A stretch of DNA of 21,291 bases from Butyrivibrio sp. (GTDB lineage Bacteria; Bacillota_A; Clostridia; Lachnospirales; Lachnospiraceae): positions 1-21,291 of the forward strand of contig JAILOW010000182.1 in NCBI GenBank assembly GCA_024690635.1, read 5' to 3'. The notes beneath the pieces were generated by a model. That model was not told the DNA's origin and did not search any database. It saw only the letters and a list, made by a program, of their open reading frames with translations. Positions 3,427-21,291 of this stretch are shown piece by piece (within the stretch, counting starts at the first letter, position 1; the number at the start of each line of letters is the position of its first letter). Both the position numbers and the translations under genes were made by a program.

Positions 3427-3427
3427 A

Positions 3428-3874
3428 TTACTGCTCCTTTACGTTTACCTTCAGCATTGCGGTTACCTGGGGATGAAGTTTTACCGGAATCTCATAGGTT
3501 CCGAAAGATTTGATGGGCTCAGCGATCTGGAGCTTTTTCTTGTCGATATCGAATCCGAACTGCTCCTTGGCGGCGCTTACAATCTCTTTTGAAGAAACCG
3601 ATCCGAATACCCTTCCGCCTTCTCCGGCCTTCATGGTTACTCTGATGGTCTCCTTTTCTATCTTTTCGGCATAAGCCTTAGCCTCGTCCAGCTGCTGCTT
3701 GGCAACAATAGAATCGCGCTTTTGCTGGTTCTTGAGCTCGTTTAAATTTTTCTGGGTTGCTTCTACTCCAAGTTTCTTGGGGAAAATAAAGTTCTTGGCA
3801 TAGCCATCGGAAACTTTAACAACCTCGCCCTTCTTTCCAAGGGTCTTTACATCTTCCAACAATATTACCTGCAT
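3428..3874 (-). CDS. rplI: 50S ribosomal protein bL9, 148 aa
   Basis: bL9 is a two-domain protein that binds 23S rRNA near the L1 stalk and helps keep reading frame. The N-terminal signature runs from MQVILLEDVKTLGKKGEVV through VSDGYAKNFIFPKKLG to about residue 36. A charged helix at about 40-75 links it to the C-terminal domain with GRVFGSVSSKEI near 86-97. Length matches the family. GGGGAG 9 nt before the ATG is formed by the last codons of gdpP, which stops 3 nt upstream. It sits between gdpP and dnaB in one transcription unit. Confidence 0.97.
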   Translation of the reverse strand: MQVILLEDVKTLGKKGEVVKVSDGYAKNFIFPKKLGVEATQKNLNELKNQQKRDSIVAKQQLDEAKAYAEKIEKETIRVTMKAGEGGRVFGSVSSKEIVSAAKEQFGFDIDKKKLQIAEPIKSFGTYEIPVKLHPQVTAMLKVNVKEQ

Positions 3875-3877
3875 TGA

Positions 3878-7462: not shown

Positions 7463-7486
7463 TTAGTAGACTAAAGTATGTATAAT
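7463..7486 (+). promoter_or_regulatory. Predicted promoter region of the amino-acid ABC operon
   Basis: A perfect TATAAT lies at 7481-7486, but no good -35 box is found 16-18 bp upstream. The would-be spacer contains the dyad TTAGT-AG-ACTAA (7463-7474), which may be an operator for an activator or repressor. The leader would be about 44 nt, too short for a T-box or large riboswitch. Confidence 0.4.
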
Positions 7487-7536
7487 TGTTTTTATCACTG
7501 ACAACAAAACAACGCATAAACAGGAGGACAACTATT

Positions 7537-8325
7537 ATGAAAAAAAGACTGTTAGCCATCATGTCAGCAATGATCATGATCCTTTCACTTTCAGCCTGCG
7601 GCAGCGCCAAGGCAGGTACTTCAGATGTGGAATATATAAAGGATAAAGGAACTCTCCTTGTGGGCATAACCGATTTTGCTCCCATGGATTACAAGGATGA
7701 TTCCGGCGAATGGATCGGCTTTGATGCTGACCTTGCAAAAAAGGTTGCCGATTCTCTTGGTGTAAAGGTTGAATTCGTTGAGATCGATTGGGACAACAAG
7801 GTTCTTGAGCTCAACAACAAATCCATCGATGTGGTATGGAACGGAATGACTCTCACTCCCGAGGTTACAAACGCCATGGAATGCACCAAGCCCTACCTCA
7901 ACAACGCACAGGTAGTTGTTGTTCCCGCAGACAAGGCAGGCCAGGTTCAGACCGTGGACGAGGCAAAAGCCCTCAGCTTTGCCGTTGAAGCAGGCTCTGC
8001 AGGAGAACAGGCTGCAACAGACAACGAGTTTGATTACACAGGCGTTACTTCTCAGGCAGATGCTGTTATGGAAGTTCAGGCAGGAACCTCAGGAGCCTGC
8101 ATCATCGACCTTCTTATGGCAGGTGCCATGATCGGCGAAGGAACAAGCTATCCCGATCTTACACACACCGTTGAGCTTACAACCGAGGAGTACGGCATCG
8201 GCTGCAGAAAAGGTTCCGACCTTGCAGCATACATCAACGACCAGCTCAAGGCTTACTATTCCGACAACAGCCTTCAGGACACCGCGGTTATCTACGGAGT
8301 TCAGGACGCAGTTATCCCACAGTAA
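7537..8325 (+). CDS. Polar amino-acid ABC transporter substrate-binding lipoprotein, 262 aa
   Basis: This is the extracellular receptor of an amino-acid importer of the HisJ/GlnH type (bacterial SBP family 3). A lipoprotein signal peptide runs from MKKRLLAIMSA to the lipobox LSAC with Cys21. The mature part shows family hallmarks: KGTLLVGITDFAPMDY, then GEWIGFDADLAKKVADSLG, a VEIDWDNKVLELNNKSIDVVWNG region and a GIGCRKGSDL segment near the end. Length is usual. The start at 7537 is chosen over an in-frame ATG at 7486 because AGGAGG at 7523-7528 and the signal peptide both fit it. The genes for permease and ATPase follow. The ligand cannot be read from sequence; glutamine, cystine or another polar amino acid are all possible. 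Confidence 0.93.
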   Translation: MKKRLLAIMSAMIMILSLSACGSAKAGTSDVEYIKDKGTLLVGITDFAPMDYKDDSGEWIGFDADLAKKVADSLGVKVEFVEIDWDNKVLELNNKSIDVVWNGMTLTPEVTNAMECTKPYLNNAQVVVVPADKAGQVQTVDEAKALSFAVEAGSAGEQAATDNEFDYTGVTSQADAVMEVQAGTSGACIIDLLMAGAMIGEGTSYPDLTHTVELTTEEYGIGCRKGSDLAAYINDQLKAYYSDNSLQDTAVIYGVQDAVIPQ

Positions 8326-8340
8326 AAGAGGAATCTATCT

Positions 8341-8997
8341 ATGTTTTGGACTGTTACCCTATCACTCCTTTCGGGGTTTCTGGCAACAATTAAATTATTC
8401 ATACTGACTTTGGTATTCTCGCTCCCCCTGGGACTTCTGATATGTCTGGGATCTGTGGGACGGCTTCGCATACTTAGGGCAGTTCTGAGATTCATCATCT
8501 GGATCGTCAGAGGAACTCCCCTTATGCTGCAGCTTCTTGTCATATACTACGGCCCCGGTATTTTCCTTGGTGCCAACGTATGGGGCACCTCGGGAAACGG
8601 CAGATTCATGGCGGCTCTCATAGCCTTTGTCATCAATTATGCCTGCTACTTTTCCGAGATCTACAGAGGCGGCATCCAGTCAATCCCCGTGGGACAGTAC
8701 GAAGCAGGTCAGGTTCTTGGAATGACCAGAAAACAGATCTTTTTCAAAGTCATTCTCCTGCAGCTTGTAAAGCGCATAGTTCCGCCCATTTCAAACGAAG
8801 TGATCACTCTTGTAAAAGACACTTCTCTTGCCAGAGTCATCGCAGTCTACGAGATCATATGGAACGGCCAGTCCTTTATAAAGAGTAGCGGCATTATCTG
8901 GCCTTTATTCTACACAGGCGCTTTCTACCTGCTCTTTAGCGGGCTTCTGACCCTGCTGTTCAGATACATAGAAGATAAACTGTCATATTTCAGATAA
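8341..8997 (+). CDS. Polar amino-acid ABC transporter permease, 218 aa
   Basis: This is the membrane channel subunit of the importer, of the HisM/GlnP type. About five hydrophobic helices are visible, with RGTPLMLQL near the third and the cytoplasmic EAA loop EAGQVLGMTRKQIFFKVILLQ, which docks onto the ATPase. The run TLVKDTSLARVIAVYE is also typical. AGAGGA lies 8 nt before the ATG, 15 nt after the stop of the binding protein. Only one permease gene is present, so it probably forms a homodimer. Confidence 0.94.
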   Translation: MFWTVTLSLLSGFLATIKLFILTLVFSLPLGLLICLGSVGRLRILRAVLRFIIWIVRGTPLMLQLLVIYYGPGIFLGANVWGTSGNGRFMAALIAFVINYACYFSEIYRGGIQSIPVGQYEAGQVLGMTRKQIFFKVILLQLVKRIVPPISNEVITLVKDTSLARVIAVYEIIWNGQSFIKSSGIIWPLFYTGAFYLLFSGLLTLLFRYIEDKLSYFR

Positions 8998-9008
8998 AAG
9001 GAAAAGCT

Positions 9009-9761
9009 ATGCCGATACTGGAAGTTAATAATCTAAAAAAGACATTTGAAAATACGCAGATCCTTAAGGGAATCTCTTTTACCATGGAAGAGGGCCAGAC
9101 CATATCCGTCATCGGCTCCTCCGGAAGCGGCAAGACCACTATGCTGCGCTGCCTCAATCTCCTTGAGACTGCAGATGAGGGCACCATAACCGTCAGGGGA
9201 CAGAAGCTTTTTGACGCATCGCAAAAGCCTGACAGCCCTGATGTTCTCAGGGAAAAGAGACTTCACTTCGGAATGGTGTTTCAGCAGTTCAATCTCTTCC
9301 CGCAGTACACTGCCCTCGAGAATGTGACTCTGGCTCCGGGGCTTCTCTGCAGTGACAGAACCCCCGCCGAGATAGAGACCATGGGAAAAGAGCTGCTGGA
9401 TCAGATGGGTCTGTCCGACAGAATGGGCAACTACCCGCACCAGCTCTCAGGCGGTCAGCAGCAGCGAGTTGCCATAGCAAGAGCCCTTGCGCTCAAGCCT
9501 GATATCTTGTGCTTTGACGAGCCCACATCGGCTCTTGATCCCGAGCTTACGGGAGAGGTGCTCCGCGTTATCAGAGAGCTGGCAAAAAAGAACATGACCA
9601 TGATAATCGTCACTCACGAAATGGCATTTGCAAGAGATGTTGCCGACGAAGTGATATTCATGGACGAGGGCATTATCCTTGAAAGAGGCCCTGCAAAAGA
9701 AGTCATAACAAATCCCAGAGAGGAAAGAACAAGACAGTTCCTCTCAAGTCTGGACAGATAA
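9009..9761 (+). CDS. Polar amino-acid ABC transporter ATPase (GlnQ/HisP type), 250 aa
   Basis: This is the nucleotide-binding subunit that powers uptake. Motifs are complete: Walker A GSSGSGKT at 36-43, Q-loop QQF near 92, signature LSGGQ at 146-150, Walker B ILCFDE at 166-171 and the switch His203. The D-loop reads SALDPEL. Length is normal for this subfamily. AAAGGA lies 6 nt before the ATG, 11 nt after the permease stop. It is the last gene of the plus-strand operon and is followed by a terminator shared with the converging MgtC-like gene. Confidence 0.96.
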   Translation: MPILEVNNLKKTFENTQILKGISFTMEEGQTISVIGSSGSGKTTMLRCLNLLETADEGTITVRGQKLFDASQKPDSPDVLREKRLHFGMVFQQFNLFPQYTALENVTLAPGLLCSDRTPAEIETMGKELLDQMGLSDRMGNYPHQLSGGQQQRVAIARALALKPDILCFDEPTSALDPELTGEVLRVIRELAKKNMTMIIVTHEMAFARDVADEVIFMDEGIILERGPAKEVITNPREERTRQFLSSLDR

Positions 9762-9780: not shown

Positions 9781-9809
9781 AAAAAGACAGCCCTAAAGGC
9801 TGTCTTTTT
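9781..9809. terminator. Bidirectional intrinsic terminator
   Basis: GACAGCC and GGCTGTC form a 7-bp stem around CTAAA with five T after it and five A before it, so it extends to 12 A/T-closed pairs and works on both strands. It separates the amino-acid importer (plus) from the end of the long minus-strand block. Confidence 0.9.
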
Positions 9810-9823
9810 ACTATCTATGAATC

Positions 9824-10522
9824 TTATACCTCTTCCACGTAGTTTACGTATTCAAGGTTGTTAAACAAAGAGATGATCTCACGGTGTGAGCCCTTCCTGT
9901 TCAGGTTGATATCGATGATAAGACCTGTGTCCGAGCTTTGAAGAGTTTTTTCCTTGCTCTTTGTCATGCTCATGATGATGAATCCCTGCTCGCCGATAAA
10001 GTTAGCAAGCTTGTTCACGCCGCGGTTTTTGTTTACCTCGATATAGATACTCATGTATCTGCTGTTGTTCTCAACTCTGTCACTGAGACGAAGAAGGATA
10101 ACATTGGCAAATACAATGAGAAGGAATGCGCAGATACCTGCCACCAGATATCCTCCTCCGATGGCCATTCCCATACAGGAGGTAACCCAGAGGGTTGCGG
10201 CAGTGGACAGACCTTTGATCTGTTTTTTGCCTGTTACCAGAATGGTACCTGCTCCCAGGAAACCGATTCCGCTTACCACACCGGCAGGGATACGGCTTAC
10301 ATCCGCAGCAAGGTTTGGAAGAAGCGCCAGATAAATATTCAGCACAGTTGCCACCGCAGAGCCAAGGCTCACAAGAGCAAAGGTCTTTATGCCTGCGTTG
10401 TGATGAGTCACTATTCTCTCCCAGCCCACAAGACCTCCGAAGATAGTTGCCATCACAAGCCTTATGGCAACAGCCACATCGCTTGTTCCCTGAAGGAATG
10501 TAATAGTATCGTTAAATGTCAT
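9824..10522 (-). CDS. MgtC/SapB family membrane protein, 232 aa
   Basis: MgtC-family proteins are inner-membrane proteins; Salmonella MgtC inhibits the F1Fo ATP synthase and affects phosphate and Mg2+ balance, while functions in Firmicutes are mostly unknown. The N-terminal membrane domain (about 1-145) has the family motifs GGLVGWER at 29-36, GIGFLGAGTI at 85-94 and GLSTAATLW at 104-112. The C-terminal part (about 157-232) looks like a small soluble ACT-like domain. I place the start at ATG 10522, 8 nt after AAGAGG; a GTG at 10531 lies inside that Shine-Dalgarno. The gene begins 17 nt after the stop of the ABC ATPase with no terminator between, so it is part of the importer transcript. Confidence 0.9.
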   Translation of the reverse strand: MTFNDTITFLQGTSDVAVAIRLVMATIFGGLVGWERIVTHHNAGIKTFALVSLGSAVATVLNIYLALLPNLAADVSRIPAGVVSGIGFLGAGTILVTGKKQIKGLSTAATLWVTSCMGMAIGGGYLVAGICAFLLIVFANVILLRLSDRVENNSRYMSIYIEVNKNRGVNKLANFIGEQGFIIMSMTKSKEKTLQSSDTGLIIDINLNRKGSHREIISLFNNLEYVNYVEEV

Positions 10523-10539
10523 ACAGTACACCTCTTCTT

Positions 10540-11601
10540 TTAAAGTGCGTACAGAGTGTTGTCCTCAAAGTTCAGATACACTGTGTCGCCCACTTTGTAG
10601 ATCTTTTTATTCTTGGGATTATAATCCTGGATCTTGATGAGGCTGTCACCGATCCTGATGTGATAATCCTGATAAGCACCCATAAAGCATGAGTAGTCGA
10701 TAACTCCCTTGATCGCACCAACATCCGAAAGGGTTGCTCCCTCGGGACGAAGAACCACGTCGCAGTCTGCACCTGCAGCAAGAGAACCTGTAGCGCACTT
10801 AACTGCTGTGCCGCCGATCTCAACCATATCCTGGCCTGTAACCTTGGCCTTGAGGAAGTTACACTCACCGATAAAGTCAGCAACGAACTTGTTGTTGGGA
10901 TAGTAGTAAGCTTCCTGAGGTGTTGCCACCTGCTCAACGATTCCCTTGTTCATGATGATGACCTTATCAGAAATAGCCATAGCCTCTGACTGATCGTGTG
11001 TTACATAAACCGCTGTGATGCCGGCTTCCTGCTGGATCCTTCTGATCTCGGTTCTCATGGAGACTCTGAGCTTGGCATCAAGGTTTGACAAAGGCTCGTC
11101 GAACAAAAGAACACCGGGCTCGATGACAAGAGCTCTTGCAAGGGCAACTCTCTGCTGCTGTCCGCCGGAGAGCTGGTTGGTCATACGGTTTTCCATTCCC
11201 TCAAGTCCCACAAGAGCAAGGATATCAGTTACCTTTCTCTTTATTGTCTCGGCATCCATCTTGCGAAGCTTAAGTCCGTAAGCCACATTATCGAAAATAT
11301 TGTAGTGAGGAAGAAGCGCATAGCTCTGGAATACCATAGCGGTATCACGTTTGTTGGGAGTAAGAGCGTTGATGGGCTCTCCTCCGAGGTAGATCTCACC
11401 TTCATCGGGAGACTCAAAACCTGCGATCATCCTAAGTGTAGTTGTTTTTCCGCAGCCTGAAGGTCCAAGAAGTGTAACAAAGCTTCCGGGCTCGATCTCC
11501 AGGTTCTGATCCTTTACGGCGTAGAAATCCTTGCCGGTCTTGGGATCTTTATAAATCTTTGAAATATGTTCAAGGCGTACGCCCTTTTTTTCTTTAGCCA
11601 T
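10540..11601 (-). CDS. ABC transporter ATPase of FbpC/AfuC/PotA type with TOBE domain, 353 aa
   Basis: This is the energy-coupling subunit of the importer encoded by the two genes upstream. Walker A GPSGCGKT is at 46-53, Q-loop QSY near 92, signature LSGGQ at 144-148, Walker B VLLFDE at 164-169, D-loop SNLDAKLR, and switch His202. From about 235 to the end is the regulatory extension with a TOBE domain, as in Fbp, Pot and 2-aminoethylphosphonate transport ATPases. AGGTGG precedes the ATG by about 5 nt and the permease stops 47 nt upstream. Pipelines would call it a ferric iron or spermidine/putrescine ATPase; the sequence does not decide the substrate. Confidence 0.95.
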   Translation of the reverse strand: MAKEKKGVRLEHISKIYKDPKTGKDFYAVKDQNLEIEPGSFVTLLGPSGCGKTTTLRMIAGFESPDEGEIYLGGEPINALTPNKRDTAMVFQSYALLPHYNIFDNVAYGLKLRKMDAETIKRKVTDILALVGLEGMENRMTNQLSGGQQQRVALARALVIEPGVLLFDEPLSNLDAKLRVSMRTEIRRIQQEAGITAVYVTHDQSEAMAISDKVIIMNKGIVEQVATPQEAYYYPNNKFVADFIGECNFLKAKVTGQDMVEIGGTAVKCATGSLAAGADCDVVLRPEGATLSDVGAIKGVIDYSCFMGAYQDYHIRIGDSLIKIQDYNPKNKKIYKVGDTVYLNFEDNTLYAL

Positions 11602-11648
11602 TTTTCCACCTATCCCGCATTTTTCATGCGTTTAATCTTAATTGACAG

Positions 11649-13364
11649 TTACTTCCCTTCCAGGTTTACCTTGCGGCTGGTTCCGAAGTACTTCATCACA
11701 AGGTTCATAAGAATAACTGAACTGTATGTGATGATGATAAGGATCGTCGCAAAGGCACAGGCGATACCAAAGGATCCTTTCTCCGCAAACTCATTGATCT
11801 GAACGGTAATGAGCAGGTAAGAAGGAGTAACCAGAAGGATGATCGCACTGATAGCAGTGATACTGCGGACGAAGGATGTAACAAAGCCGCTAAGGAAGCT
11901 GTCCTTGATAAGCGGAAGAGTTACCGTCATAAATACCTTAAAGCTGTCCGCGCCCATGTCATAAGCAGATTCCTCAATGCTCTTATCGATCTGGCGAAGA
12001 GCTGAGATTCCGCTTCGTGTACCTGTGGGAAGTGACCTTACGATGAATACGATTACAAGGATCGCACCTGTTCCGTAAAGGCCCTGCAAAATTCCTGTTC
12101 CGAAGATTCCCCCTGAGAAACCTCTGATGTATCCGATACCAAGAACAGTTCCGGGAACTGCCATGGCCAGCATAGAAACCGCTTCAATAAATCCCTTGGT
12201 CTTGAAATTTCTTTTAACCACAAGGTACGAAATGATCATGGACAAAAGAGCTGTGATAGGCGCTGAGATAAGTGACAGGATAAAACTGTCCTTAAAGGCC
12301 TTAAGTCCTTTGTACTTTTTAAATACCTGACCGAACCACTTGAAGGTCAGATGGAAATCATAGCCCCAGGTCTTGAACATCGCGCCGAAAGGAACGCAGA
12401 TGTACATAAGTATTACGAATACCGCAAGGGCTGAACACATGATGGTGAGCGGGATTGTAACGCTCTTATCCGTAATGAGCATACGCTCTCTGGATGCCTT
12501 ACCTGAGAGTGTAGCTGTACTCTTGGCTTCAAGGTAGTATTTCTGCACGATGAACATCAAAAGGGTAATACCCAAAAGAACTACCGCCATGGCAGCTGCA
12601 CCCTGTTTGTCGTAGGCACCCGTTATCTGAAGGTAGATGGTTGTTGCCAATGTGTCGTAGGATCCGCCGATGATCATGGGGTTTGCAAAGTCCGCGATGG
12701 ACTCGATAAAGGTTACAAGGAAGGCATTGCCAAGACCCGGAAGGATCAGAGGCAGTGTAACCGTCATGAATACCTTGAACCTTGATGCACCCATATCTCT
12801 TGCTGCTTCCTCAAGAGACGGATCGATATTTTTCAAAAGACCTTTCAGCATCATGTAGCAGACAGGGAAGAATGTAAGTGTCTGTACAATCGCAATTCCC
12901 CAGAAACCGTAGACGCTGTTGTCATAAATTTTCAGCAAAAATCTTGTGATGATGCCCGCTTTTCCAAAGAGCATGATCATTGAAAGTGAAAGCACGAAGG
13001 GCGGTGATACTACGGGAAGCATTGATACCGCCTTAAAAAGCACTTCCATAAATCCGGTACGGAGCTTTACATATACCTCAACATAGGCAAACAAAAGACC
13101 TATGAGGGCAGATGCGATTCCTACCAGAAAACCTACTTTTAAAGTATTGGTGATGGCCCTTCTGAAATTGGAAAGGCCCATGATCCTCTTAAAAACATCC
13201 AGTGTGAACCCATTTTCCGAAATGAAGCTGTCCGTCAGCAATATAGCCAGCGGATACAAGATGAACAGTGTAAGAAATGCTACCAAAAGCACGATGGTGG
13301 TTATCATTATGGGATCCGCCATGAGCTTTTTCCTGTCAAGGCTGGCACTTTGACTCTTTGCCAT
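11649..13364 (-). CDS. Fused double-domain ABC permease (FbpB/AfuB type), 571 aa
   Basis: Two permease domains are joined in one chain, giving about 12 membrane helices; FbpB, AfuB and PhnU-type permeases share this plan. Each half has its own EAA loop: EEAARDMGASRFKVFMTVT at about 185-203 and EESAYDMGADSFKVFMTVT at about 464-482. The two loops are very alike, as expected from duplication. The linker between halves, about 280-300, is polar. The protein therefore needs only one gene to form the channel. AGGAGG lies 7 nt before the ATG. A strong hairpin lies between this gene and the binding protein upstream and may lower permease expression. Confidence 0.95.
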   Translation of the reverse strand: MAKSQSASLDRKKLMADPIMITTIVLLVAFLTLFILYPLAILLTDSFISENGFTLDVFKRIMGLSNFRRAITNTLKVGFLVGIASALIGLLFAYVEVYVKLRTGFMEVLFKAVSMLPVVSPPFVLSLSMIMLFGKAGIITRFLLKIYDNSVYGFWGIAIVQTLTFFPVCYMMLKGLLKNIDPSLEEAARDMGASRFKVFMTVTLPLILPGLGNAFLVTFIESIADFANPMIIGGSYDTLATTIYLQITGAYDKQGAAAMAVVLLGITLLMFIVQKYYLEAKSTATLSGKASRERMLITDKSVTIPLTIMCSALAVFVILMYICVPFGAMFKTWGYDFHLTFKWFGQVFKKYKGLKAFKDSFILSLISAPITALLSMIISYLVVKRNFKTKGFIEAVSMLAMAVPGTVLGIGYIRGFSGGIFGTGILQGLYGTGAILVIVFIVRSLPTGTRSGISALRQIDKSIEESAYDMGADSFKVFMTVTLPLIKDSFLSGFVTSFVRSITAISAIILLVTPSYLLITVQINEFAEKGSFGIACAFATILIIITYSSVILMNLVMKYFGTSRKVNLEGK

Positions 13365-13393
13365 TGTTATTCCTCCTAGTATATCTTAAAGAA

Positions 13394-13417
13394 AAGGGCG
13401 GAAGAACTTCCGCCCTT
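13394..13417 (-). terminator. Intra-operon hairpin between binding protein and permease
   Basis: AAGGGCGGAA and TTCCGCCCTT form a perfect 10-bp stem around a GTTC loop, followed on the minus strand by the imperfect T-run TTCTTT. It lies between the stop of the binding protein and the permease start. It may be a leaky terminator or an mRNA stabiliser that gives more binding protein than channel, which is common in ABC operons. Confidence 0.65.
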
Positions 13418-13466
13418 ATATGAAGCATACAAATCGAGTGTGCGTTTTCGCCAGAATAAGCAAAGC

Positions 13467-14639
13467 TTATTCTGTCTGGAAACGATCGTCTGCTGCACTT
13501 CCGAGTGCGCTCATAACCTCTTCAACATAAGTTGCAGTGTTTTCTTTTGCATCAGCGAAGTCATAATCCATTACGTTGTCGGGATCAAGACCGAACTCTG
13601 TAGCAACCTCAGGCTGCTTTGCATTGTCGATAACAAGGAACTGGTAAGAACCGTTCTGTGCTGCAAGCTCTACGCAGTCAGGTGTAAGAGCATACTCGAT
13701 CCAAAGCTTAGCTGCATTGGGATGAGCACATCCCTTGAAGATAGCTGTTGCACCAACTTCGAATGATGTTCCTGTTGAAGGAATAACAAGTCCGATGTTG
13801 CCATAGCCGTTGTCAACGATCTGTGCGATTGCATCATGAAGGAATCCGATACCAACTACGCACTCTCCTGTTCCAACGTTCTTGGAAGGGCCTGAGCCTG
13901 ACTTTGTGTAAACTTCGATGTTCTTGTCAAGGTCAACAAGGTACTGGATACCTTCGTCGTGACCATACTTCTGGATCATTGTGTTGATAACGAGCTTCGC
14001 TGTTCCTGCTGTGTTGTAGTTTGAAAGCCATACAAGTCCCTGATACTTGGAATCAAGAAGGTCTTTCCAATCAGCGGGAGCCTCAAGTCCCATACGATCA
14101 AGCTCATCCTTGTTTACCATGAATCCGAGGATTCCTTTGTAGATACCATACCAGTATCCGTCGGGATCGCGGTACATGTCGCCAATAAGGTGGCTTGCAT
14201 TCTCTGCCTCATAAGCCTCTAAAAGTCCCTCGCCTGCTGCTACGTTGTAGGGATCGGTTGTGCCGCCGAACCAAACGTCGCCTGAAGGATTTCCGTTCTC
14301 TTCTTCGATCTTGCTCTGAACTTCACCGGTTGAAAGTCTCTGATACTGAACCTTGATTCCGTAAAGCTCTTCGAAATGCTCACATGCTGCTGCAAGATAT
14401 TCTTCTTCGCAGGATCCGTAAACAACCAGCTCACCCTCAGCCTTTGCTGCCTCGATGAGAGCATCCATTCCTGATGCTTCTGCCTCTGTAGCCTCTGCTG
14501 TCTCAGCGGGCTCAGCTGCAGGTGCCTCTGCTGTCTCAGCTGCAGGAGTCTCTGCTGCAGGTGCCTCTGTTGTGCTTCCGCAACCAACAACACCAAGTGT
14601 CATAAGTCCTGCCAATACCAACGCTAATTTCTTTTTCAT
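13467..14639 (-). CDS. ABC transporter substrate-binding lipoprotein, FbpA/AfuA fold, 390 aa
   Basis: This is the ligand receptor of the importer that follows it. A signal peptide ends at a VVGC lipobox (Cys20). Residues 21-57 form an Ala/Glu/Pro linker to the wall side. The binding fold starts at about 60 with GELVVYGSCEEEYLAAACE and contains GDVWFGGTTDPY, GILGFMVNKDEL and LVWLSNYNTAGTA. Where ferric-binding proteins such as FbpA have an adjacent Tyr-Tyr pair, this protein has GFLHDAIAQ with His268-Asp269. That argues against classical Fe3+ binding and resembles AfuA-like proteins that bind sugar phosphates; Glu294 could be a further contact, judged from memory of AfuA. AAAGGAG lies before the ATG. 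The ligand is unproven. Confidence 0.9.
   Translation of the reverse strand: MKKKLALVLAGLMTLGVVGCGSTTEAPAAETPAAETAEAPAAEPAETAEATEAEASGMDALIEAAKAEGELVVYGSCEEEYLAAACEHFEELYGIKVQYQRLSTGEVQSKIEEENGNPSGDVWFGGTTDPYNVAAGEGLLEAYEAENASHLIGDMYRDPDGYWYGIYKGILGFMVNKDELDRMGLEAPADWKDLLDSKYQGLVWLSNYNTAGTAKLVINTMIQKYGHDEGIQYLVDLDKNIEVYTKSGSGPSKNVGTGECVVGIGFLHDAIAQIVDNGYGNIGLVIPSTGTSFEVGATAIFKGCAHPNAAKLWIEYALTPDCVELAAQNGSYQFLVIDNAKQPEVATEFGLDPDNVMDYDFADAKENTATYVEEVMSALGSAADDRFQTE
14491..14569. repeat. Imperfect repeats coding the Ala/Glu/Pro linker
   Basis: A 17-nt unit beginning GCCTCTGCTG occurs exactly at 14491-14507 and 14524-14540, and a 16-nt unit GCTGCAGGTGCCTCTG at 14515-14530 and 14554-14569. All lie in the linker of the binding lipoprotein, so length change by slippage or recombination would alter only the spacer between lipid anchor and binding domain. 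Confidence 0.7.
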
Positions 14640-14742
14640 ATTCCTCTCCTTTCAATATCGGGTCATTGGATAGTAATATGATAAAAAAACGAGCATTTTT
14701 AAAATACCTAATTTTCTGTTTAATTATCCAAAAAAATGAACT
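14640..14742 (-). promoter_or_regulatory. Gap between response regulator and importer genes, possible regulated promoter
   Basis: The 103-bp gap is A/T-rich and has no intrinsic terminator, so readthrough from the regulator genes is possible. Candidate -10 boxes (CATATT, TACTAT near 14670-14680 on the minus strand) have no matching -35 box. Such a weak promoter would fit activation by the AraC-type regulator, but I see no clear repeated binding site. Confidence 0.3.
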
Positions 14743-15504
14743 TCACTTCACAAAATCGGATGGTGAACTTCCGGAGTACTTTTTAAAGACCGTGCTGAAG
14801 TACTTGTAATCACTAAATCCCGTCATATCAGACACTTCATAGATCTTGTATTTCCCTGTCTCCAGGAGCTTCACAGCCTGCTGAACCCTGTATTTATTAA
14901 GGAAATCCAGATACTTAAGTCCCGTTGCCTCTTTGAATTTCCTGGACAGGTAGCTGGCCGAAACTCCAAACTCCTCAGCAAAGCCCTCTATGCTGATCTT
15001 TTCTGCGTAAAGCTCTTTTGTCTTATCAAGGACCTGCTGTACGTAGTCGTTTTCCTTTTCGCTTTTGAAAAAAATAGGCTCTGATTCAAAGGCATCGATC
15101 ATGCGGTCATCGATCTGCCTAAGGCGCTTGTCTCTTTCGATGTCATCAATGACCTTCTTTATGTTTTCTTTCAGCTCCTCTTCATCAACGGGCTTCATAA
15201 GGTAAGCCGAAACCCCAAGCTCAATTGCCTTTTTTGCATACTCAAACTCACCATAGCTGGTCATGATGATAGCCTTGAAATCAGCTATTTCCCTGCCCTG
15301 ACGGATCATCTCTATTCCGTCTGTTATGGGCATCATAATGTCCGCAAGAACTATATCCGGCTGAAGTTCTCTTATCTTTTGAACTCCCTCCTGACCGTTT
15401 GCGGCTTCTCCCACTATGGTGCAGCCCATGGAAACCCAGTCCATTGTATATGCTATTCCTTTGCGGATGATGTCCTCATCCTCTGCTATCAAAACTCTGT
15501 ACAT
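14743..15504 (-). CDS. AraC-type response regulator (YesN-like), 253 aa
   Basis: This is the transcription-factor half of a two-component system. The receiver domain (1-120) has the acidic pair Glu8-Asp9, the phosphoacceptor Asp55 in LADIMMP, Thr83 and Lys105 in the usual places. A linker follows, then two helix-turn-helix units of the AraC/XylS family (about 155-253), including FGVSASYLSRKFKEATG and the signature-like end SDMTGFSDYKYFSTVFKKY. The ATG overlaps the kinase stop codon (TAATG), so the two are made together. The nearest likely target is the importer gene set directly downstream. Confidence 0.95.
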   Translation of the reverse strand: MYRVLIAEDEDIIRKGIAYTMDWVSMGCTIVGEAANGQEGVQKIRELQPDIVLADIMMPITDGIEMIRQGREIADFKAIIMTSYGEFEYAKKAIELGVSAYLMKPVDEEELKENIKKVIDDIERDKRLRQIDDRMIDAFESEPIFFKSEKENDYVQQVLDKTKELYAEKISIEGFAEEFGVSASYLSRKFKEATGLKYLDFLNKYRVQQAVKLLETGKYKIYEVSDMTGFSDYKYFSTVFKKYSGSSPSDFVK

Positions 15505-17180
15505 TAACTCTGTATCCTCTTTGGCAGGGTCAGCCTTACCATGGTTCCCTCACCCTTTTTACTGTTTAGCTCAAGACCGTAGTCCTCTTTATACATCAGC
15601 TGGATCCTTCGGTGTATGTTATAAAGTCCGAAATGTCCGGAGGTGTTATCGCTGTTTTCCAGCTGTGCCTTTAGGCCGCCAAGTACGTCCTCATCTATTC
15701 CGACGCCGTCATCCTCGCATACAAATATCAGACTTTCTTTTATCTGATAACCGCTGATGTTCACCGTAAGTTTTTCCTTTTCTCCGAAACCGTATTTTAC
15801 AGCATTTTCCAAAAGCGGCTGTAATAACAATTTGGGGATCAGGCATTCACGTATATCCTCAGCCACATTGATATTGTAGGCAAAGCGCTTGTTGAATCTG
15901 ATCTGAAGGATGTTCAGGTAATACTGCAGGTTATCAAGATCCTCCCTGACAGTTACCTCCTCCCTCATGTCCTTTATGCTGTAGCGCAAAAGACCTGACA
16001 ATGACACGATCATCTTGTCAGCAGCCGCTGCATCGATCCTTGCCATAAACCTGATATTGTCCAGGGTATTGAACAAAAAGTGAGGATTAAACTGGCTTTC
16101 GAGCTGTTTGACCTGAGAAAAAGCAGCATTCTCCGCAAGCTCTTTGTTTCTCTCAATCTGCTCCTTAAGACCGTCAAGCATCTCGTTAAAGTCATTGCCT
16201 ATGGTCTGGAACTCCCTGTTACTGTCAATATTAAGGCTTACATCAAGATCTCCCTGCTGAACCGCCTCAAAAGCATCCTCTATCTTTTTTACATCCCTCG
16301 TGTATTTCTCAGAGCTGGTGGCTGTACTTCTGTAGGTGATAAAAATGATGGCAATGAAGATGACAAGGATTATTGCCATCAAAAGAAGTATCATCCTAAG
16401 GCTTCTGTTGATGTCATAAAAAGTATAGACTCTGAGTCCCTTGGCCAGGCTTGATTCGTAGCAGATATATTTTTGTCCGCCGCTTCTGACATAGCCCGAA
16501 TGTCTCTCAAAGACTCCTCGTATCTGGCCAAGTTCATCCTTTAGTCCCTGAGTGTTGTTCAGATAGATCCAGCCGTTTTCATCTGTCACAATGCAGTATC
16601 TGCTGCGTTTATTGATGATGTCCGCAATGACCTGGGAGGGCACAGCGTACACAATGGCAAAGTCAAGGCTTCCGTTTTTATACTCCCCGAAGGTCACATA
16701 CAAAGTCCCTTCAAAGAGTATGGTATTGGTAAGTCCGGGTTTTGCCTTTATCCTGTTCCACACTCCCCAGTCCATAAGCTCGGGATCTGTCAGCGCCGAG
16801 GGAACTTCCTGCCTGCTGCCGCTGGTAAAAAGAACCTCTCCCTCACCTGACAGTATCATCAAAGTTCCAAGCTCGTCGTAAGCAGAAGTAGAATCATAGA
16901 GCTTGGCATAGATACGGTTTTTTACATTCTCCGCATCACTGCCGCTCTTATCCATGATGTTTTTAACATCCACAACCATGCTGTAATAGCCCGAAAGAAC
17001 CGCATTTGCCTCACTTGCTATCTCTTCGTTGTCACGCCTGTTGGACTCACCCATGTAGGCACTCCAGGATACAACAAAAACTATCATAACGGCAAACACG
17101 ATACCGATGACAGGTGCAAGAGAAAAGACTATGAATGTACGTCTTATACTTTCCTGAAAGGATTCAATCTCTTTATTCAT
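15504..17180 (-). CDS. Membrane sensor histidine kinase of the LytS/YesM type, 558 aa
   Basis: The kinase has a membrane helix at about 18-41, an extracellular domain at about 43-260, a second helix at about 261-283, a HAMP domain to about 340 and a His_kinase/HATPase core. The phosphoacceptor is His367 in NPHFLFN; the ATP site shows LLENAVKYG at 456-464, DDGVGID at 490-496 and FGLYN at 517-521. I choose the ATG at 17180 because GGAGG lies 5 nt upstream; a TTG at 17204 would add eight residues with no Shine-Dalgarno. Its first codons overlap the last codons of the binding-protein gene by 8 nt. The extracellular domain probably contacts that protein. Confidence 0.95.
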   Translation of the reverse strand: MNKEIESFQESIRRTFIVFSLAPVIGIVFAVMIVFVVSWSAYMGESNRRDNEEIASEANAVLSGYYSMVVDVKNIMDKSGSDAENVKNRIYAKLYDSTSAYDELGTLMILSGEGEVLFTSGSRQEVPSALTDPELMDWGVWNRIKAKPGLTNTILFEGTLYVTFGEYKNGSLDFAIVYAVPSQVIADIINKRSRYCIVTDENGWIYLNNTQGLKDELGQIRGVFERHSGYVRSGGQKYICYESSLAKGLRVYTFYDINRSLRMILLLMAIILVIFIAIIFITYRSTATSSEKYTRDVKKIEDAFEAVQQGDLDVSLNIDSNREFQTIGNDFNEMLDGLKEQIERNKELAENAAFSQVKQLESQFNPHFLFNTLDNIRFMARIDAAAADKMIVSLSGLLRYSIKDMREEVTVREDLDNLQYYLNILQIRFNKRFAYNINVAEDIRECLIPKLLLQPLLENAVKYGFGEKEKLTVNISGYQIKESLIFVCEDDGVGIDEDVLGGLKAQLENSDNTSGHFGLYNIHRRIQLMYKEDYGLELNSKKGEGTMVRLTLPKRIQS

Positions 17181-18198
17181 TGTCCCCTCCCATGATAAGC
17201 GCAAATTTATCCGTCCACTCTTTCTTACTCTTTATAACAAGGTCTCTGTCAACTTCTATTATGTCAAGGCTCCCTTTTTCGCTGACAAGATTTGATGCCT
17301 CCACGTCAGTTCGAACAGAACGCCTTCCGAGATTTTTGGATATATATTTTTGAACGTGGGCGTCCGTCATAAAGTCCACAAAAGCCTTGGCGCTGTCCAC
17401 ATTTTTTGCGTTTTTGTTTATGTAAAGGCCGTCGGGTGTTGAAACCACGCCCTCCTTCATATAGACGATCTTTATATGCTTGCCGGCTTTTAACATTGTG
17501 ATGGCAGCCTCTTCAAAGGTAAGACCCACAACATACTTGCCGCTTGAAACGCCCTCATAAACCGCGGAGGATCCTGAGACCAGTCCGCCGGTGAGCTGCC
17601 CTGCAAAAGAGCTGACATAGTCCCAGCCTTTTTCGGGATCGCCGCCACCCATGGCATAGAGCATCTTCACAAGCTGCTCAACAGAAGATGCTGATCTGCC
17701 GGGATCAGCGTAAGCGATCTTGCCCCTAAGAGCGGGATTAAGAAGATCCTCGTAGCCTTCTATCTTTGTATCTCCGATAAGATCAGTATTTATCATAAGG
17801 ACACTAGGCACATCAGTAAAACCTGTGATGCCTGATCCAAGGTCTTTAAACTCCGGGAGAAAACTGTCGTGATTTGCACATGTATACGGAAGAAAATAAT
17901 CACTGTAAGCACCAACGGACAATACGGATCCTCCCCATAAAAGATCCACATCTTTTCCCTCAACCATCATATCTATGGCCTCGGTGGTACCACACTTTAT
18001 GATTTCTACGGTAATGCCTGTCTCTGACTCAAATTCATTGATAAGAGGTCTCATAAAATCTATGGGATGAGGCGATGCCACCACAATCTTTTTATCCTCT
18101 TTATCGATCTGCGCATGACCTGCCAGGGCAAGATAAAGCCCCACAGCGGCCAGGATCAGGATTATAGCCGTTCCTGTTAAGATGTAAAACCTCTTCAT
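17173..18198 (-). CDS. Membrane-anchored substrate-binding protein, probable ligand sensor for the kinase, 341 aa
   Basis: The protein has an N-terminal hydrophobic helix (about 4-26) with no lipobox, then a periplasmic-binding-protein fold of the FbpA/AfuA/PgtC class: KKIVVASPHPIDFMRPLIN, GKDVDLLWGGSVLSVGAYS, YADPGRSASSVEQL and GLTFEEAAITMLKAG. It is only distantly like the importer's own binding protein. It is first in the operon, directly before kinase and regulator, with its stop inside the kinase start. In Salmonella, PgtC is a protein of this kind that works with the PgtB sensor and PgtA regulator for phosphoglycerate, so a sensing role is likely rather than transport. I prefer ATG 18198 after GAGGGG; a GTG at 18210 has no Shine-Dalgarno. 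Confidence 0.88.
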   Translation of the reverse strand: MKRFYILTGTAIILILAAVGLYLALAGHAQIDKEDKKIVVASPHPIDFMRPLINEFESETGITVEIIKCGTTEAIDMMVEGKDVDLLWGGSVLSVGAYSDYFLPYTCANHDSFLPEFKDLGSGITGFTDVPSVLMINTDLIGDTKIEGYEDLLNPALRGKIAYADPGRSASSVEQLVKMLYAMGGGDPEKGWDYVSSFAGQLTGGLVSGSSAVYEGVSSGKYVVGLTFEEAAITMLKAGKHIKIVYMKEGVVSTPDGLYINKNAKNVDSAKAFVDFMTDAHVQKYISKNLGRRSVRTDVEASNLVSEKGSLDIIEVDRDLVIKSKKEWTDKFALIMGGDNE

Positions 18199-18227
18199 AG
18201 ATCCCCTCACTGGAAAAATAATAATTT

Positions 18228-18255
18228 ATTATAGCATAGATAAAAAATGTTCTAA
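18228..18255 (-). promoter_or_regulatory. Predicted promoter of the sensor/importer block
   Basis: On the minus strand a perfect extended -10, TGCTATAAT (18228-18236), lies 16 bp after a weak TTAGAA (18250-18255). The leader would be only about 23 nt. A strong extended -10 with a poor -35 is compatible with basal constitutive expression of the sensors. Confidence 0.55.
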
Positions 18256-18311: not shown

Positions 18312-18323
18312 ATTTATTGGGTT

Positions 18324-18341
18324 ACGTTATTTTTTTAACAA
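18324..18341. promoter_or_regulatory. Candidate Rex (NADH/NAD+ sensor) operator
   Basis: The 18-bp stretch matches the Rex consensus TTGTTAANNNNTTAACAA at 11 of 14 fixed positions; the right half TTAACAA is perfect and the core GTTA-N6-TAAC is intact. It lies just downstream of the predicted start point, where a repressor would act. Rex controls alcohol dehydrogenase genes in many Clostridia. The T-rich surroundings make a chance match possible. Confidence 0.45.
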
Positions 18342-18364
18342 TATTTTTCAAGGAGGTATTACTT

Positions 18365-19582
18365 ATGTCACGTTTTACACTGCCCAGAGACATCTACCAC
18401 GGAAAGGGCGCTCTTGAAGCGCTGAAGACATTTGAGGGCAAGCGCGCCATCATCTGCACAGGTGGCGGGTCCATGAAAAGGGGAGGTTTCCTTCAGAAGG
18501 TAGAAGATTACCTGAAGGAAGCAGGAATGGAAGTTGAATTGTTTGAAGGAATCGAGCCCGATCCTTCAGTCGAGACTGTTATGAAGGGTGCTGAAGCAAT
18601 GCAGAAATTCCAGCCTGACTGGATCGTTGCAATCGGCGGCGGTTCACCCATCGATGCAGCCAAGGCTATGTGGATCAAGTACGAGTATCCTGAGACAACA
18701 TTTGAAGATATGTGCAAGGTCTTTGGTCTTCCCAAGCTCCGCACAAAAGCTAAATTCTGTGCTATTTCATCCACATCAGGAACAGCTACGGAGGTTACAG
18801 CTTTCTCAATCATCACTGATTACCAGAAGGGTATCAAGTATCCTATCGCAGACTTCGAGATCACACCCGATGTTGCTATCGTAGATCCCGAGCTTGCACA
18901 CACAATGCCTAAAAAGCTTGTTGCTCACACAGGTATGGATGCTATGACCCACGCTGTTGAGGCTTATGTTTCCACAGCTAACTGCGAGTACACAGATCCT
19001 CTTGCAATCCATGCAATTGAGATGATCATGGAGCACCTTGTTAAGTCCTACAACGAAGATATGGCTTCAAGAGATGCTATGCACGATGCTCAGTGTCTTG
19101 CAGGAATGGCATTCTCCAATGCTCTTCTTGGTATCGTTCACTCAATGGCTCACAAGACCGGTGCTGTTTTTGCAGACCTTGGCGCTCACATCATCCACGG
19201 TGCAGCTAACGCTATGTACCTTCCCAAGGTTATCGCATTCAACGCAAAGGACCCTGTAGCTAAAAAGCGCTACGGCGTTATCGCTGATTACATGCACCTT
19301 GGCGGATCAAACGACGATGAGAAGGTTAAGCTCCTTATCGATTACCTGCGCAAGATGAATGATGACCTCAACATTCCTCACAGCATCAACCACTACGGTG
19401 CTGACGGACTTCCTGCAGAACAGGGCTTCGTACCTGAGGATGTATTCCTTGAGAGACTCCATGACATCGCAGCTAATGCTATTCTGGATGCCTGCACAGG
19501 ATCAAATCCCCGTCAGCCCAGCCAGGAAGAAATGGAAAAGCTGCTTAAGTGCTGCTACTACGACACAGAGGTTGATTTCTGA
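18365..19582 (+). CDS. Iron-containing (type III) alcohol dehydrogenase, 405 aa
   Basis: The enzyme reduces an aldehyde or ketone to an alcohol with NAD(P)H in the cytoplasm, typically to re-oxidise fermentation cofactors. The nucleotide site GGGSPIDAAK is at 91-100. Family metal ligands are present: Asp192 and His196 in GMDAMTHAVEAY, His263 in MAHKTG and His278 in the IHG motif. The loop between the last two histidines (GAVFADLGAHIIHG) is a few residues longer than in FucO. The family does not fix the substrate; butanol, propanediol and lactaldehyde enzymes all look like this. ATG 18365 is chosen because AAGGAGG ends 8 nt upstream; a TTG at 18317 has none. It is monocistronic, divergent from the sensor block. 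Confidence 0.95.
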   Translation: MSRFTLPRDIYHGKGALEALKTFEGKRAIICTGGGSMKRGGFLQKVEDYLKEAGMEVELFEGIEPDPSVETVMKGAEAMQKFQPDWIVAIGGGSPIDAAKAMWIKYEYPETTFEDMCKVFGLPKLRTKAKFCAISSTSGTATEVTAFSIITDYQKGIKYPIADFEITPDVAIVDPELAHTMPKKLVAHTGMDAMTHAVEAYVSTANCEYTDPLAIHAIEMIMEHLVKSYNEDMASRDAMHDAQCLAGMAFSNALLGIVHSMAHKTGAVFADLGAHIIHGAANAMYLPKVIAFNAKDPVAKKRYGVIADYMHLGGSNDDEKVKLLIDYLRKMNDDLNIPHSINHYGADGLPAEQGFVPEDVFLERLHDIAANAILDACTGSNPRQPSQEEMEKLLKCCYYDTEVDF

Positions 19583-20298: not shown

Positions 20299-21042
20299 TC
20301 ATAATACTTTATTTAAGAAATCAATGGTCCTTTCCTCTTTTGGATTAAGAAGAACTTCCTGAGGAGTTCCTTCCTCCACAATAAAGCCTCCATCCATAAA
20401 GATAACTCTGTCTGCAACTTCTCTTGCAAAGCCCATCTCATGAGTAACAATGACCATTGTCATGCCGTCTGCCGCAAGGTTTTTCATAACCTGCAAAACT
20501 TCTCCCACCATCTCAGGATCAAGAGCTGATGTAGGCTCGTCAAAGAGCATGATATCAGGCTCCATACAAAGAGCTCTTGCTATGGCAACACGCTGCTTCT
20601 GACCGCCGGAAAGCTGGCTTGGAAAGCTTCCTTCTTTGTCAGCAAGGCCTACCTTTGCAAGCATCTTCTTTGCTCTCTCCACAGCTTCTGCCTTGGAGCA
20701 CTTTTTAAGCTCTATGGGAGCAAGGGTGAGGTTGTCCAGAATGTTCAGGTTGTTGAAAAGATTGAAGTGCTGGAAAACCATTCCGATGTTCTCACGGATA
20801 TGATTTATATTCACTTTCTTTTGGGTGATGTCCTGACCGTCGATGACAACCTTGCCGGAGGTAACCTCCTCAAGCCTGTTAAGACAGCGAAGGAATGTGG
20901 ATTTACCGGAACCTGAAGGTCCGATGACACATACAACTTCACCCTTTTTTATCTCTGCTGAAATATCGGATAAAACCTCAAGGTTTCCGTAACATTTCTT
21001 GAGATTATCAACTTTGATCTTGATCTCGTTATTATCTGCCAA
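20299..21042 (-). CDS. Second polar amino-acid ABC transporter ATPase (GlnQ type), 247 aa
   Basis: This is the ATPase of another amino-acid importer. Walker [10 protein letters not shown] is at 41-49, Q-loop QHF near 91, LSGGQ at 144-148, Walker B IMLFDE at 164-169 and switch His201. The best start is a TTG at 21042, 7 nt after AAAGGAGG and giving [10 protein letters not shown], the usual length; a GTG at 21072 lies upstream of that Shine-Dalgarno. The gene overlaps the end of the permease by 11 nt. It is about as similar to the ATPase at 9009 as paralogues of this subfamily usually are, so the two importers are separate systems rather than a recent local duplication. Confidence 0.95.
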
Positions 21043-21291
21043 TGCTGAGCCTCCTTTCAACCATCTTTGCACTTCGTGAAAGGATAGTTATAACAATAAG
21101 ATACATGGCTCCGACAATAGCCCATGTCTGGAAAGACATGAAGGTATTTGCCTGAACATTCTTTGCGGTATTTACCAGCTCCGGGAAACCGATAACTGAC
21201 AAAATGGATGTGTCCTTAAGGGTGATAATGAACTGGTTGATGAAGGTAGGGATCATGGTGCGGATAGCCTGAGGAAGCACAACTCTTCTCA
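21032..21291 (-). CDS. Polar amino-acid ABC transporter permease, C-terminal 85 residues (cut by window edge)
   Basis: The frame is open to the window edge. The visible piece starts in the conserved region [19 protein letters not shown] just after the EAA loop, continues with [15 protein letters not shown], and ends in a final membrane helix (about [17 protein letters not shown]) and a basic tail. It matches the C-terminus of GlnP/HisM-type permeases. It overlaps the ATPase start, and the binding-protein gene probably lies further upstream outside the window. Confidence 0.93.

Follow-up and report, generated by a model that had tools for sequence, protein, structure and literature searches.

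Seven genes lie together on the minus strand, between positions 9824 and 18255, of a 21,291-nucleotide stretch of Butyrivibrio DNA, the whole of which was analysed and is here called the window. The locus raises the question of what compound its sensing half detects, what its importing half carries, and whether the two halves belong to one circuit. The answer that we consider highly probable, on comparative sequence grounds, is a hexose-phosphate sense-and-import module: a re-wired Staphylococcus HptASR-uhpT circuit in which the same kind of sensor and operator would serve a different transporter.

Gene order and its recurrence

Gene and domain calls bore out the earlier note's description of a seven-gene, one-strand sense-and-import block; the order is real and the families are as assigned. 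The first three genes encode an hptA-like sensor solute-binding protein (17173..18198, matched to 6lki by sequence and fold; the likely start is the ATG at 18198, the mechanical open reading frame beginning at GTG 18210), an hptS-like histidine kinase (15504..17180; double-Cache ectodomain, HAMP, His_kinase and HATPase) and an hptR-like response regulator with an AraC-type DNA-binding domain (14743..15504). They are followed by an afuA-like importer solute-binding lipoprotein that keeps the sugar residues of AfuA (13467..14639), an afuB-like fused permease with two BPD_transp_1 stretches (11649..13364), an afuC-like ATPase with a TOBE_2 domain (10540..11601), and an mgtC-like membrane protein of the MgtC/SapB family (9824..10522). 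As had been claimed, the binding-protein stop overlaps the kinase start (by 8 nt) and the kinase stop overlaps the regulator start (by 1 nt, TAATG). The description of the genes as mostly overlapping or closely spaced is right for the tightly overlapping trio, but slightly generous for the rest: the gaps are 103 bp from hptR to afuA, 102 bp from afuA to afuB, 47 bp from afuB to afuC, and 17 bp from afuC to mgtC (counted from the mgtC ATG), two of them thus being about 100 bp.

A pattern scan found a 10-bp stem with a T-rich tail in the afuA-afuB gap (13394..13417, minus strand), a possible attenuator, and a 13-bp stem with a T run (9781..9809, minus strand), the likely terminator of the block. 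Both hairpins are named with caution because the numbers of pattern hits in the window are in no excess over shuffled sequence (8 terminator-like hits against a mean of 7.6; 16 promoter-like hits against 14.0). The window contains no tRNA, and no Rfam match at the gathering threshold.

The order is not a product of chance, since hptASR-afuABC recurs in related genomes; that it is found only here is therefore false. Among 299 sampled genomes of the family to which Butyrivibrio sp. XPD2006 belongs, XPD2006 itself included, 12 have an AfuA-type protein (E<=1e-60). Trio and importer are paired in 7 of these 12; the order is hptASR-afuABC in 5 and afuABC-hptASR in 2. One of the five, G293, is split across two contigs, with 112 of 112 hptR residues common. 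A tree, computed like the site-scan counts after L003 and L004 had been dropped (same places as L090 and L074), separates the two order groups, with an AU test p of 0.0465. The idea that trio and importer came together twice, independently, was considered and is not adopted; this separation and p value lend it weak support.

The mgtC-like protein matches PF02308 at 114.2 bits (cut-off 31.4) and falls below both NCBIfam equivalog cut-offs (PRK09977, 113.9 of 214; PRK15385, 74.4 of 255). Its inclusion in the block is correct here, but it lies outside the conserved core: in the hptASR-afuABC genomes it is present at this place in 7 of 11 and missing there in 4. MgtC is a clade-limited neighbour.

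The sensor trio

By sequence, the best solved relative of the hptA-like protein is Staphylococcus aureus HptA (6lki/6lkg, E 1.8e-35); in a fold search of the PDB the same protein ranks first, followed by AfuA with glucose-6-phosphate (G6P). The gene order hptA-hptS-hptR is that of S. aureus. The kinase combines a His_kinase domain (PF06580) with an ectodomain modelled as a double Cache (pLDDT 92.6), and the regulator is an AraC-type response regulator; double PDC is the ectodomain class given for HptS in passages of PMC8534201. The S. aureus HptS chain was absent among the 50 fold matches listed for the kinase ectodomain. Salmonella PgtC-PgtB-PgtA had been proposed as the model of the sensor; in its place, S. 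aureus HptASR proves the closest known relative, by both sequence and fold of the binding protein. Judged by these comparisons, the trio is HptASR-like, of the S. aureus glucose-6-phosphate sensor type, and not Pgt-like.

The hptA-like protein has an N-terminal transmembrane anchor and no lipobox, and the same replacement was seen in 11 of the 12 HptA rows of the hptASR-afuABC clade. Whether every dedicated sensor might be marked by such an anchor was also considered, and this was rejected: HptA has a lipobox in four UhpT loci (see below) and in L005, which lies within the clade. Note that anchor and lipobox were judged by eye: a pattern rule also flagged L075, overruled on account of a hydrophobic stretch after the cysteine, and missed lipoboxes in several Brachyspira, L030 and L082, which were counted as lipoproteins.

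In loci of Clostridium, Pelosinus and Bacillus, an HptA homologue is the sole binding protein of these families seen beside the ATPase and permease, and for this reason it probably serves transport there. If the same held in the present block, HptA would not be a dedicated sensor but would also feed the AfuBC permease, with AfuA widening the substrate range. We consider this very unlikely, because the HptA of the hptASR-afuABC clade has mostly exchanged its lipobox for an anchor, because HptA here adjoins a permease only ~30% identical to those accompanying its homologues elsewhere, and because the CuaDSR-CuaABC system, as described in passages of PMC10384115, splits sensing and transport between different proteins.

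The operator before afuA

Within the 103 bp that separate the trio from the importer lies an element that the earlier reader overlooked and that joins the two halves of the block. Comparative site scans place there a predicted operator, the HptR-box (14704..14741, minus strand), a pair of direct repeats spanning 38 bp at 65-102 bp before afuA; it scores 39.4 bits with itself left out of the matrix. When 47 loci (1,562,948 positions) were scanned, with the site of each locus left out of its own scoring, 33 sites exceeded 16 bits; each lies in a different locus, some of these loci being near-copies. All 33 precede an importer operon: 32 lie 87-178 nt before afuA or hptA as located by tblastn, and the remaining one, in L077, precedes a lipoprotein-permease-ATPase operon. 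The best match not before such a gene reached 13.5 bits. Note that the sites are not independent (near-copies L001/L002, L017/L020/L030, L018/L019 and L122/L123), and that loci L031-L072, with flanks of 1.5 kb, lay outside the scan. L015, at a contig edge, counts neither for nor against a box.

When whole genomes were searched with up to 3 mismatches, exactly one site, before afuA, was found in each of the 11 hptASR-afuABC genomes and none in 6 other genomes; a reversed-pattern control gave none in all 17. In Clostridium, Pelosinus and Bacillus, too, the box stands before importer operons of the HptA type. No box was found before afuA in L086, where an HptR-like gene is present, and none was found in L124-L126, where HptR has 35-40% identity. 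A matrix made solely from the 12 Butyrivibrio-type sites and applied to the other loci gave a top match of 31.3 bits, with true sites down to 7.4 bits and below; among 100 column-permuted matrices the highest score was 22.2 bits, and the mean maximum was 12.4. The case made by this matrix outside Butyrivibrio-type loci therefore rests on the positions of the top hits, not on score alone. Downstream of all 38 sites stands TA....T, at 20 nt in 26 and at 21 nt in 12, and no other offset from 0 to 39 occurs in more than 5 of the 38. By this phasing, the -10 element in the window is predicted to be TATCAT (14678..14683, minus strand), 20 nt downstream of the operator.

Fifteen Bacilli genomes have an HptA match, and seven were examined: four loci carry UhpT (NCBIfam NF007107, above cut-off) and three an ATPase-permease pair. 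In the four HptASR-UhpT loci, which are out of sample, the site before uhpT scores 24.6-29.6 bits, the next best reaching at most 9.0. Relative to the MNFFD peptide's ATG these sites begin at -93 to -96, and their position agrees with that published for the S. aureus HptR site, -67 to -96 (PMC6291074). In L122 and L123, an alternative ATG 21 nt upstream would place the site at -72. The HptR motif is known in S. aureus, according to passages of PMC10746227. No uhpT occurs among the 16 window proteins scanned; the box precedes afuA instead. Since the box precedes afuABC, HptA-type importers and uhpT, the comparison suggests a single kind of regulator-operator pair in control of different transporters, sitting here on afuABC(-mgtC).

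The importer, its ligand and related systems

AfuABC, which had been named as a model of the importer, was a sound choice: AfuA is the top structural relative of the afuA-like protein, followed among the three best by VcA0625, whose structure is titled as a G6P-binding protein, and by P5PA. H268, D269 and E294 match AfuA H205, D206 and E229, and these residues are kept in 20 of 20 aligned AfuA-type proteins, the block's own included. In AfuA, changing these residues abolishes G6P binding. At 14 of the 19 listed AfuA contact positions the residue is identical; the other five differ (T11E, G36S, S37T, S148A and I186S), with identical changes in all 20 aligned proteins, so that the sugar phosphate bound here may not be exactly G6P. 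In L088, which has no trio, a mannose-6-phosphate isomerase gene lies 69 bp after afuABC and a phosphoglucomutase/phosphomannomutase gene before it. Putative afuABC loci in some Firmicutes are mentioned in passages of PMC4546632. The prediction that the ligand is a phosphorylated organic compound is supported, and the range of candidates shrinks to hexose-6-phosphate-like sugars.

The presence of P5PA (6wce) as third-best relative, together with a Thr104 that matches P5PA Thr37 and not AfuA Ser37, could mean that pyridoxal-5-phosphate, or some other ring compound bearing a phosphate, is both the cargo of the importer and what the sensor watches. However, in the alignment P5PA shows a gap and an Ala instead of the Asp and Glu of the AfuA motif, both kept here and in 19 of 19 aligned relatives, and passages of PMC8427247 confine P5PA to Pasteurellaceae; the operator common to uhpT also counts against such a ligand, which we regard as highly improbable. 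Automatic names point to an iron(III) or 2-aminoethylphosphonate system: some relatives of the sensor protein are called 'iron(III) transport system substrate-binding protein' in databases, and the best NCBIfam matches are PhnS2 for the importer binding protein and PhnU2 for the permease, with PhnT2 top for the ATPase. This is hardly credible, since all three scores are under the curated cut-offs (163.7 of 392.75, 297.0 of 593.25 and 364.2 of 457.7, respectively), the closest structural relatives bind G6P, and the AfuA sugar motif is intact. Phosphoglycerate is set aside: the trio's listed NCBIfam matches (for the regulator, the best 25 of 117) include no Pgt model.

In the hexose-phosphate module that we favour, the trio would probably be made at a steady level, watching for substrate, since no HptR box was found before it. 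Glucose-6-phosphate, or a sugar phosphate closely related to it, would bind HptA outside the cell, HptA being held at the membrane by its N-terminal helix; by analogy with S. aureus, loaded HptA would act on the double-Cache domain of HptS, which would phosphorylate HptR. HptR would bind the direct repeats beside the -10 element, a site placed by comparison, and turn on afuABC-mgtC. AfuA, a separate lipoprotein, would capture the sugar phosphate, and AfuB and AfuC would import it by ATP hydrolysis, as residues and family suggest.

A bolder proposal, to which we give somewhat less than an even chance, is that HptASR and its operator form a portable cassette, re-targeted to at least four outputs (uhpT, an HptA-fed ABC importer, afuABC and the L077 importer); that the sensor of the Butyrivibrio line became membrane-bound, no longer competing with or docking on the importer; and that MgtC joined the operon to adjust the phosphate/magnesium balance during a flood of organic phosphate.

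No report of the HptASR-AfuABC pairing was found in the open-licence PubMed Central literature: the parts are known, the logic is known from CuaDSR-CuaABC, and the combination is without a report found. For relatives of this rumen/gut operon, an 'iron(III) transport' label may give way to a specific function, and a single 38-bp DNA signature may reveal hexose-phosphate regulons across Bacillota. One sensor-operator pair is suggested to serve the antiporter of those Bacilli that have UhpT and, in Lachnospiraceae, an ABC importer, and transporter swapping under a constant regulator is therefore open to direct study. The findings also suggest that sensors of this kind can be rewired to new transporters, and that scavenging free sugar phosphates pays off in the rumen.

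Among known systems, S. aureus HptASR-uhpT is alike in gene order, protein families and HptA fold, in the operator and how far it lies from the target gene (as seen in the four Bacilli UhpT loci), and in having just one target (PMC10746227 gives one HptR ChIP-seq peak; here each genome has one box). It differs in its target, which is the UhpT antiporter where the present block has the ABC importer afuABC(-mgtC), and in that HptA here is mostly transmembrane-anchored, whereas that of the four UhpT loci bears a lipobox. Actinobacillus pleuropneumoniae AfuABC, for hexose/heptose phosphates, shares the binding protein, permease and ATPase and the residues H205, D206 and E229; here there are five contact changes, an adjoining three-component regulator and a lipoprotein binding protein. 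Salmonella PgtABC-PgtP, for phosphoglycerate, also has a three-part sensor with a binding-protein-like component, but PgtA is an NtrC-type regulator, whereas the regulator here is AraC-type. The logic is the same in CuaDSR-CuaABC of Ruminiclostridium cellulolyticum: according to passages of PMC10384115, its ligand is cellobiose, its regulator is longer (318 residues between two domains), its sensor protein is a lipoprotein and its genes form two separate operons, but there, as here, one binding protein senses with a kinase and an AraC-type regulator, another transports, and the trio lies upstream of the importer operon.

Sensor and importer genes

On the minus strand of the window, the genes are arranged as hptA-hptS-hptR-afuA-afuB-afuC-mgtC, with overlaps of 8 nt (hptA/hptS) and 1 nt (hptS/hptR) and subsequent spacers of 103, 102, 47 and 17 bp. 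The sensor protein has a single identical database entry, its own, and its closest relatives belong to Butyrivibrio and other Lachnospiraceae; the window probably derives from a rumen or gut metagenome. By sequence, the solved structure nearest to the first binding protein is that of S. aureus HptA (6lki, 126 bits, E 1.8e-35), the runner-up protein scoring only 47.8 bits; a fold search with the modelled protein (pLDDT 91.9) puts HptA (6lkg) at the top, followed by G6P-bound AfuA. A passage of PMC8774646 describes HptA as the G6P-binding component of S. aureus HptASR. The modelled kinase ectodomain (pLDDT 92.6) has a double Cache fold, the class under which part of PMC8534201 lists S. aureus HptS, and the response regulator contains an AraC-type domain.

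For the second binding protein, the best-matching solved structures are AfuA (E 9.8e-55), VcA0625 (8x1a, titled a periplasmic G6P-binding protein; E 8.1e-53) and P5PA (E 2.8e-42). According to a passage of PMC4546632, G6P binding by AfuA is abolished by change of H205, D206 or E229. In pairwise alignment these residues correspond to H268, D269 and E294 of the window protein, and all three are kept in 20 of 20 aligned AfuA-type proteins (from the loci, the window protein included, bit score >400, short-flank duplicates excluded). P5PA, in contrast, lacks the Asp and Glu of this motif, both of which are present in the window AfuA. Of the 19 contact positions named in the relevant part of PMC8427247, 14 are identical between AfuA and the window protein, the changes being T11E, G36S, S37T, S148A and I186S, and 18 are invariant across the 20 proteins. 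The fused permease and the ATPase score below the curated cut-offs for a 2-aminoethylphosphonate importer. Context support for a hexose-phosphate substrate comes from a locus without the trio (L088:3358-11086), in which afuABC lies between a phosphoglucomutase/phosphomannomutase gene upstream of afuA and a mannose-6-phosphate isomerase gene 69 bp after afuC.

Several neighbouring genes were also noted. An iron-containing alcohol dehydrogenase (Pfam; 18317-19582, plus strand) diverges from hptA; tblastn detected no such neighbour at the other hptASR-afuABC loci examined, so it is probably unrelated to the block. A predicted amino-acid-type ABC importer (7486-9761, plus strand; binding protein PF00497, permease and ATPase assigned from sequence alone) is convergent with mgtC, another ABC ATPase (Pfam) lies at 20299-21072, and adjoining genes for DnaB helicase, ribosomal protein L9 and a GdpP-like c-di-AMP phosphodiesterase (Pfam) occupy 2083-5929 on the minus strand.

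A candidate HptR operator

Inspection of the DNA revealed a direct-repeat pair before afuA in every hptASR-afuABC locus (the 38-bp box, 14704-14741 on the minus strand of the window). With a weight matrix built from 12 sites, each locus being scored without its own site, sites of the trained type came out on top (39.4 bits for the window site), and the next eight matches, beyond which nothing exceeded 12 bits, came from loci without a training site and all preceded an importer operon. A broader 16-site matrix, applied with the same exclusion of the own site, was scanned over 1,562,948 positions in 47 loci and gave 33 sites above 16 bits, one per locus in 33 loci, although these represent fewer than 33 independent cases since several loci are near-copies. 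In all but one of the 33, the distance to the afuA or hptA gene downstream is 87-178 nt; a further match in L091 (15.1 bits) also precedes hptA, and the best match away from importer operons reaches 13.5 bits. The remaining site belongs to L077 (3563-12305), where a separate trio, with a transmembrane-anchored HptA besides HptS and HptR, is followed by the box and then by an operon for a lipoprotein, a permease and an ATPase. This importer is of another kind, and a Pfam search at 1e-5 found no family for its 449-aa lipoprotein.

The box was absent from scanned loci without a close hptR (L012, L013, L021, L023, L026, L029, L084, L085, L087, L088 and L092), and in L015 the contig is cut near its expected place. 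In L086, hptR is present and neither HptA nor the box was found; there a 300-aa HptS-like kinase without a sensor domain (11377-12279) lies beside an HptR-like regulator and afuABC, and this locus may be decaying or rewired.

When a matrix of the 12 Butyrivibrio-type sites only was applied to 43 other loci (1,362,124 positions), the top 13 matches all preceded an importer or uhpT and the 14th did not, weaker sites being intermixed with background. Because 100 column-permuted matrices reached 22.2 bits at best (mean maximum 12.4), this test is carried by place rather than score. A whole-genome pattern search allowing up to three mismatches, which may miss weaker sites, detected the box exactly once in every one of the 11 genomes with hptASR-afuABC, whereas six other genomes had none; the reversed pattern occurred in 0 of 17.

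Outside the family, 15 of 398 genomes from the class of a Bacillus relative had an HptA match at E<=1e-25, and seven of these 15 were examined. Four carry the trio beside a protein passing the UhpT cut-off (768-774 bits against 497). A matrix without any uhpT-type site placed a box before uhpT in all four (24.6, 29.3, 29.6 and 29.6 bits, with no other match above 9.0). Relative to the start codon of the MNFFD peptide the boxes span -95 to -58, -96 to -59 and, in two loci, -93 to -56; L122 and L123 have a second ATG 21 nt upstream. For the S. aureus uhpT promoter, a passage of PMC6291074 locates HptR binding at -67 to -96 and cre at -61 to -46, and in part of PMC10746227 ChIP-seq of HptR is described as giving one peak only. 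No box was found in the remaining three loci, L124-L126, which have an ATPase-permease pair and regulators 35-40% identical. The first recognition helix (SYLSRKFK or a variant of it) retains an Arg in all 35 box-bearing regulators read whole, two further ones being incomplete and outside this count; by alignment this Arg is missing in L087, L091 and L124-L126 and kept in L086 and L015.

Across 38 sites, a TA....T element begins 20 nt (26 sites) or 21 nt (12 sites) after the box, all other offsets in 0-39 being found in at most five. The box would thus end at the expected -35 place, which fits an activator touching RNA polymerase. Neither the locus scans nor the whole-genome search placed a box upstream of the trio itself, so the trio is probably not self-activated through HptR.

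Distribution, MgtC and HptA anchoring

A single scan with the sensor protein yielded 30 loci. The order hptASR-afuABC occurs in L001, L002, L005, L006, L007 and L024 and, by place in additional genomes, in L073, L075, L076, L090 and genome G293, whose block is split over contigs L074 and L089 that share hptR (112/112 residues identical). In L090 (5899-16063), about 10 kb with GGDEF, CotH kinase and nitronate monooxygenase genes separates hptR from afuA, and the box remains at afuA. The reverse order, afuABC-hptASR, occurs in L014, L078 and L079. Elsewhere, Clostridium, Pelosinus and Bacillus included, the gene for the HptA homologue adjoins those for an ATPase and a fused permease, the latter sharing about 30% identity with the window permease, and the kinase and regulator genes come next. 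Three Brachyspira loci (L012:7759-11020, L013 and L021) carry HptA-like binding proteins in tandem, two or three of them, ahead of a single ATPase-permease pair; within the stretch examined, neither a kinase nor a regulator from the families concerned was found.

Phylogenetic analysis of 45 HptA proteins places the 12 from hptASR-afuABC loci in one clade (100/100) and the three reverse-order ones in a separate clade; a constraint joining the two was weakly rejected (p 0.0465). The sample of 299 genomes from the family yielded an HptA-like match (E<=1e-15) in 43 and an AfuA-type match (E<=1e-60) in 12, seven of the latter pairing AfuA with the trio. Of the others, G150 (L086) has the regulator and the kinase missing its sensor domain, G249 (L087) has a kinase-regulator pair of another kind (25% and 32% identity), and the remaining three have no kinase or regulator in the stretch examined.

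The window mgtC product exceeds the PF02308 cut-off and does not reach that of either NCBIfam equivalog MgtC model. The gene follows afuC in seven of 11 hptASR-afuABC genomes, being the only PF02308 match of the genome in six; in the other four, the sole match lies elsewhere. Since these four form one clade, a single gain or loss suffices for the pattern. Salmonella MgtC boosts phosphate uptake via PhoR, according to PMC6658541, and we would guess at a role in phosphate balance here.

Inspection by eye indicated an N-terminal hydrophobic helix without a lipobox in 11 of the 12 HptA proteins of the hptASR-afuABC clade, L005 being the exception that keeps a lipobox, and an anchor also in the dedicated sensor of L077. 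The reverse-order proteins and nearly all HptA proteins beside their own permease appear lipoprotein-like, and two Succinivibrio-type proteins have plain signal peptides. Because HptA of the UhpT loci is a lipoprotein, anchoring is a feature of particular lineages and not of every dedicated sensor.

Relation to known systems

As far as our searches of the open-licence PubMed Central literature show, no earlier report couples an HptASR-type sensor to AfuABC. The operator shared by uhpT and afuABC and the transmembrane-anchored HptA also appear to be new, less certainly so because the search on these narrower points covered only the HptR motif. Separate binding proteins for sensing and transport are themselves known from CuaDSR-CuaABC and the systems cited with it in part of PMC10384115, and the block in the window would follow the same split logic.
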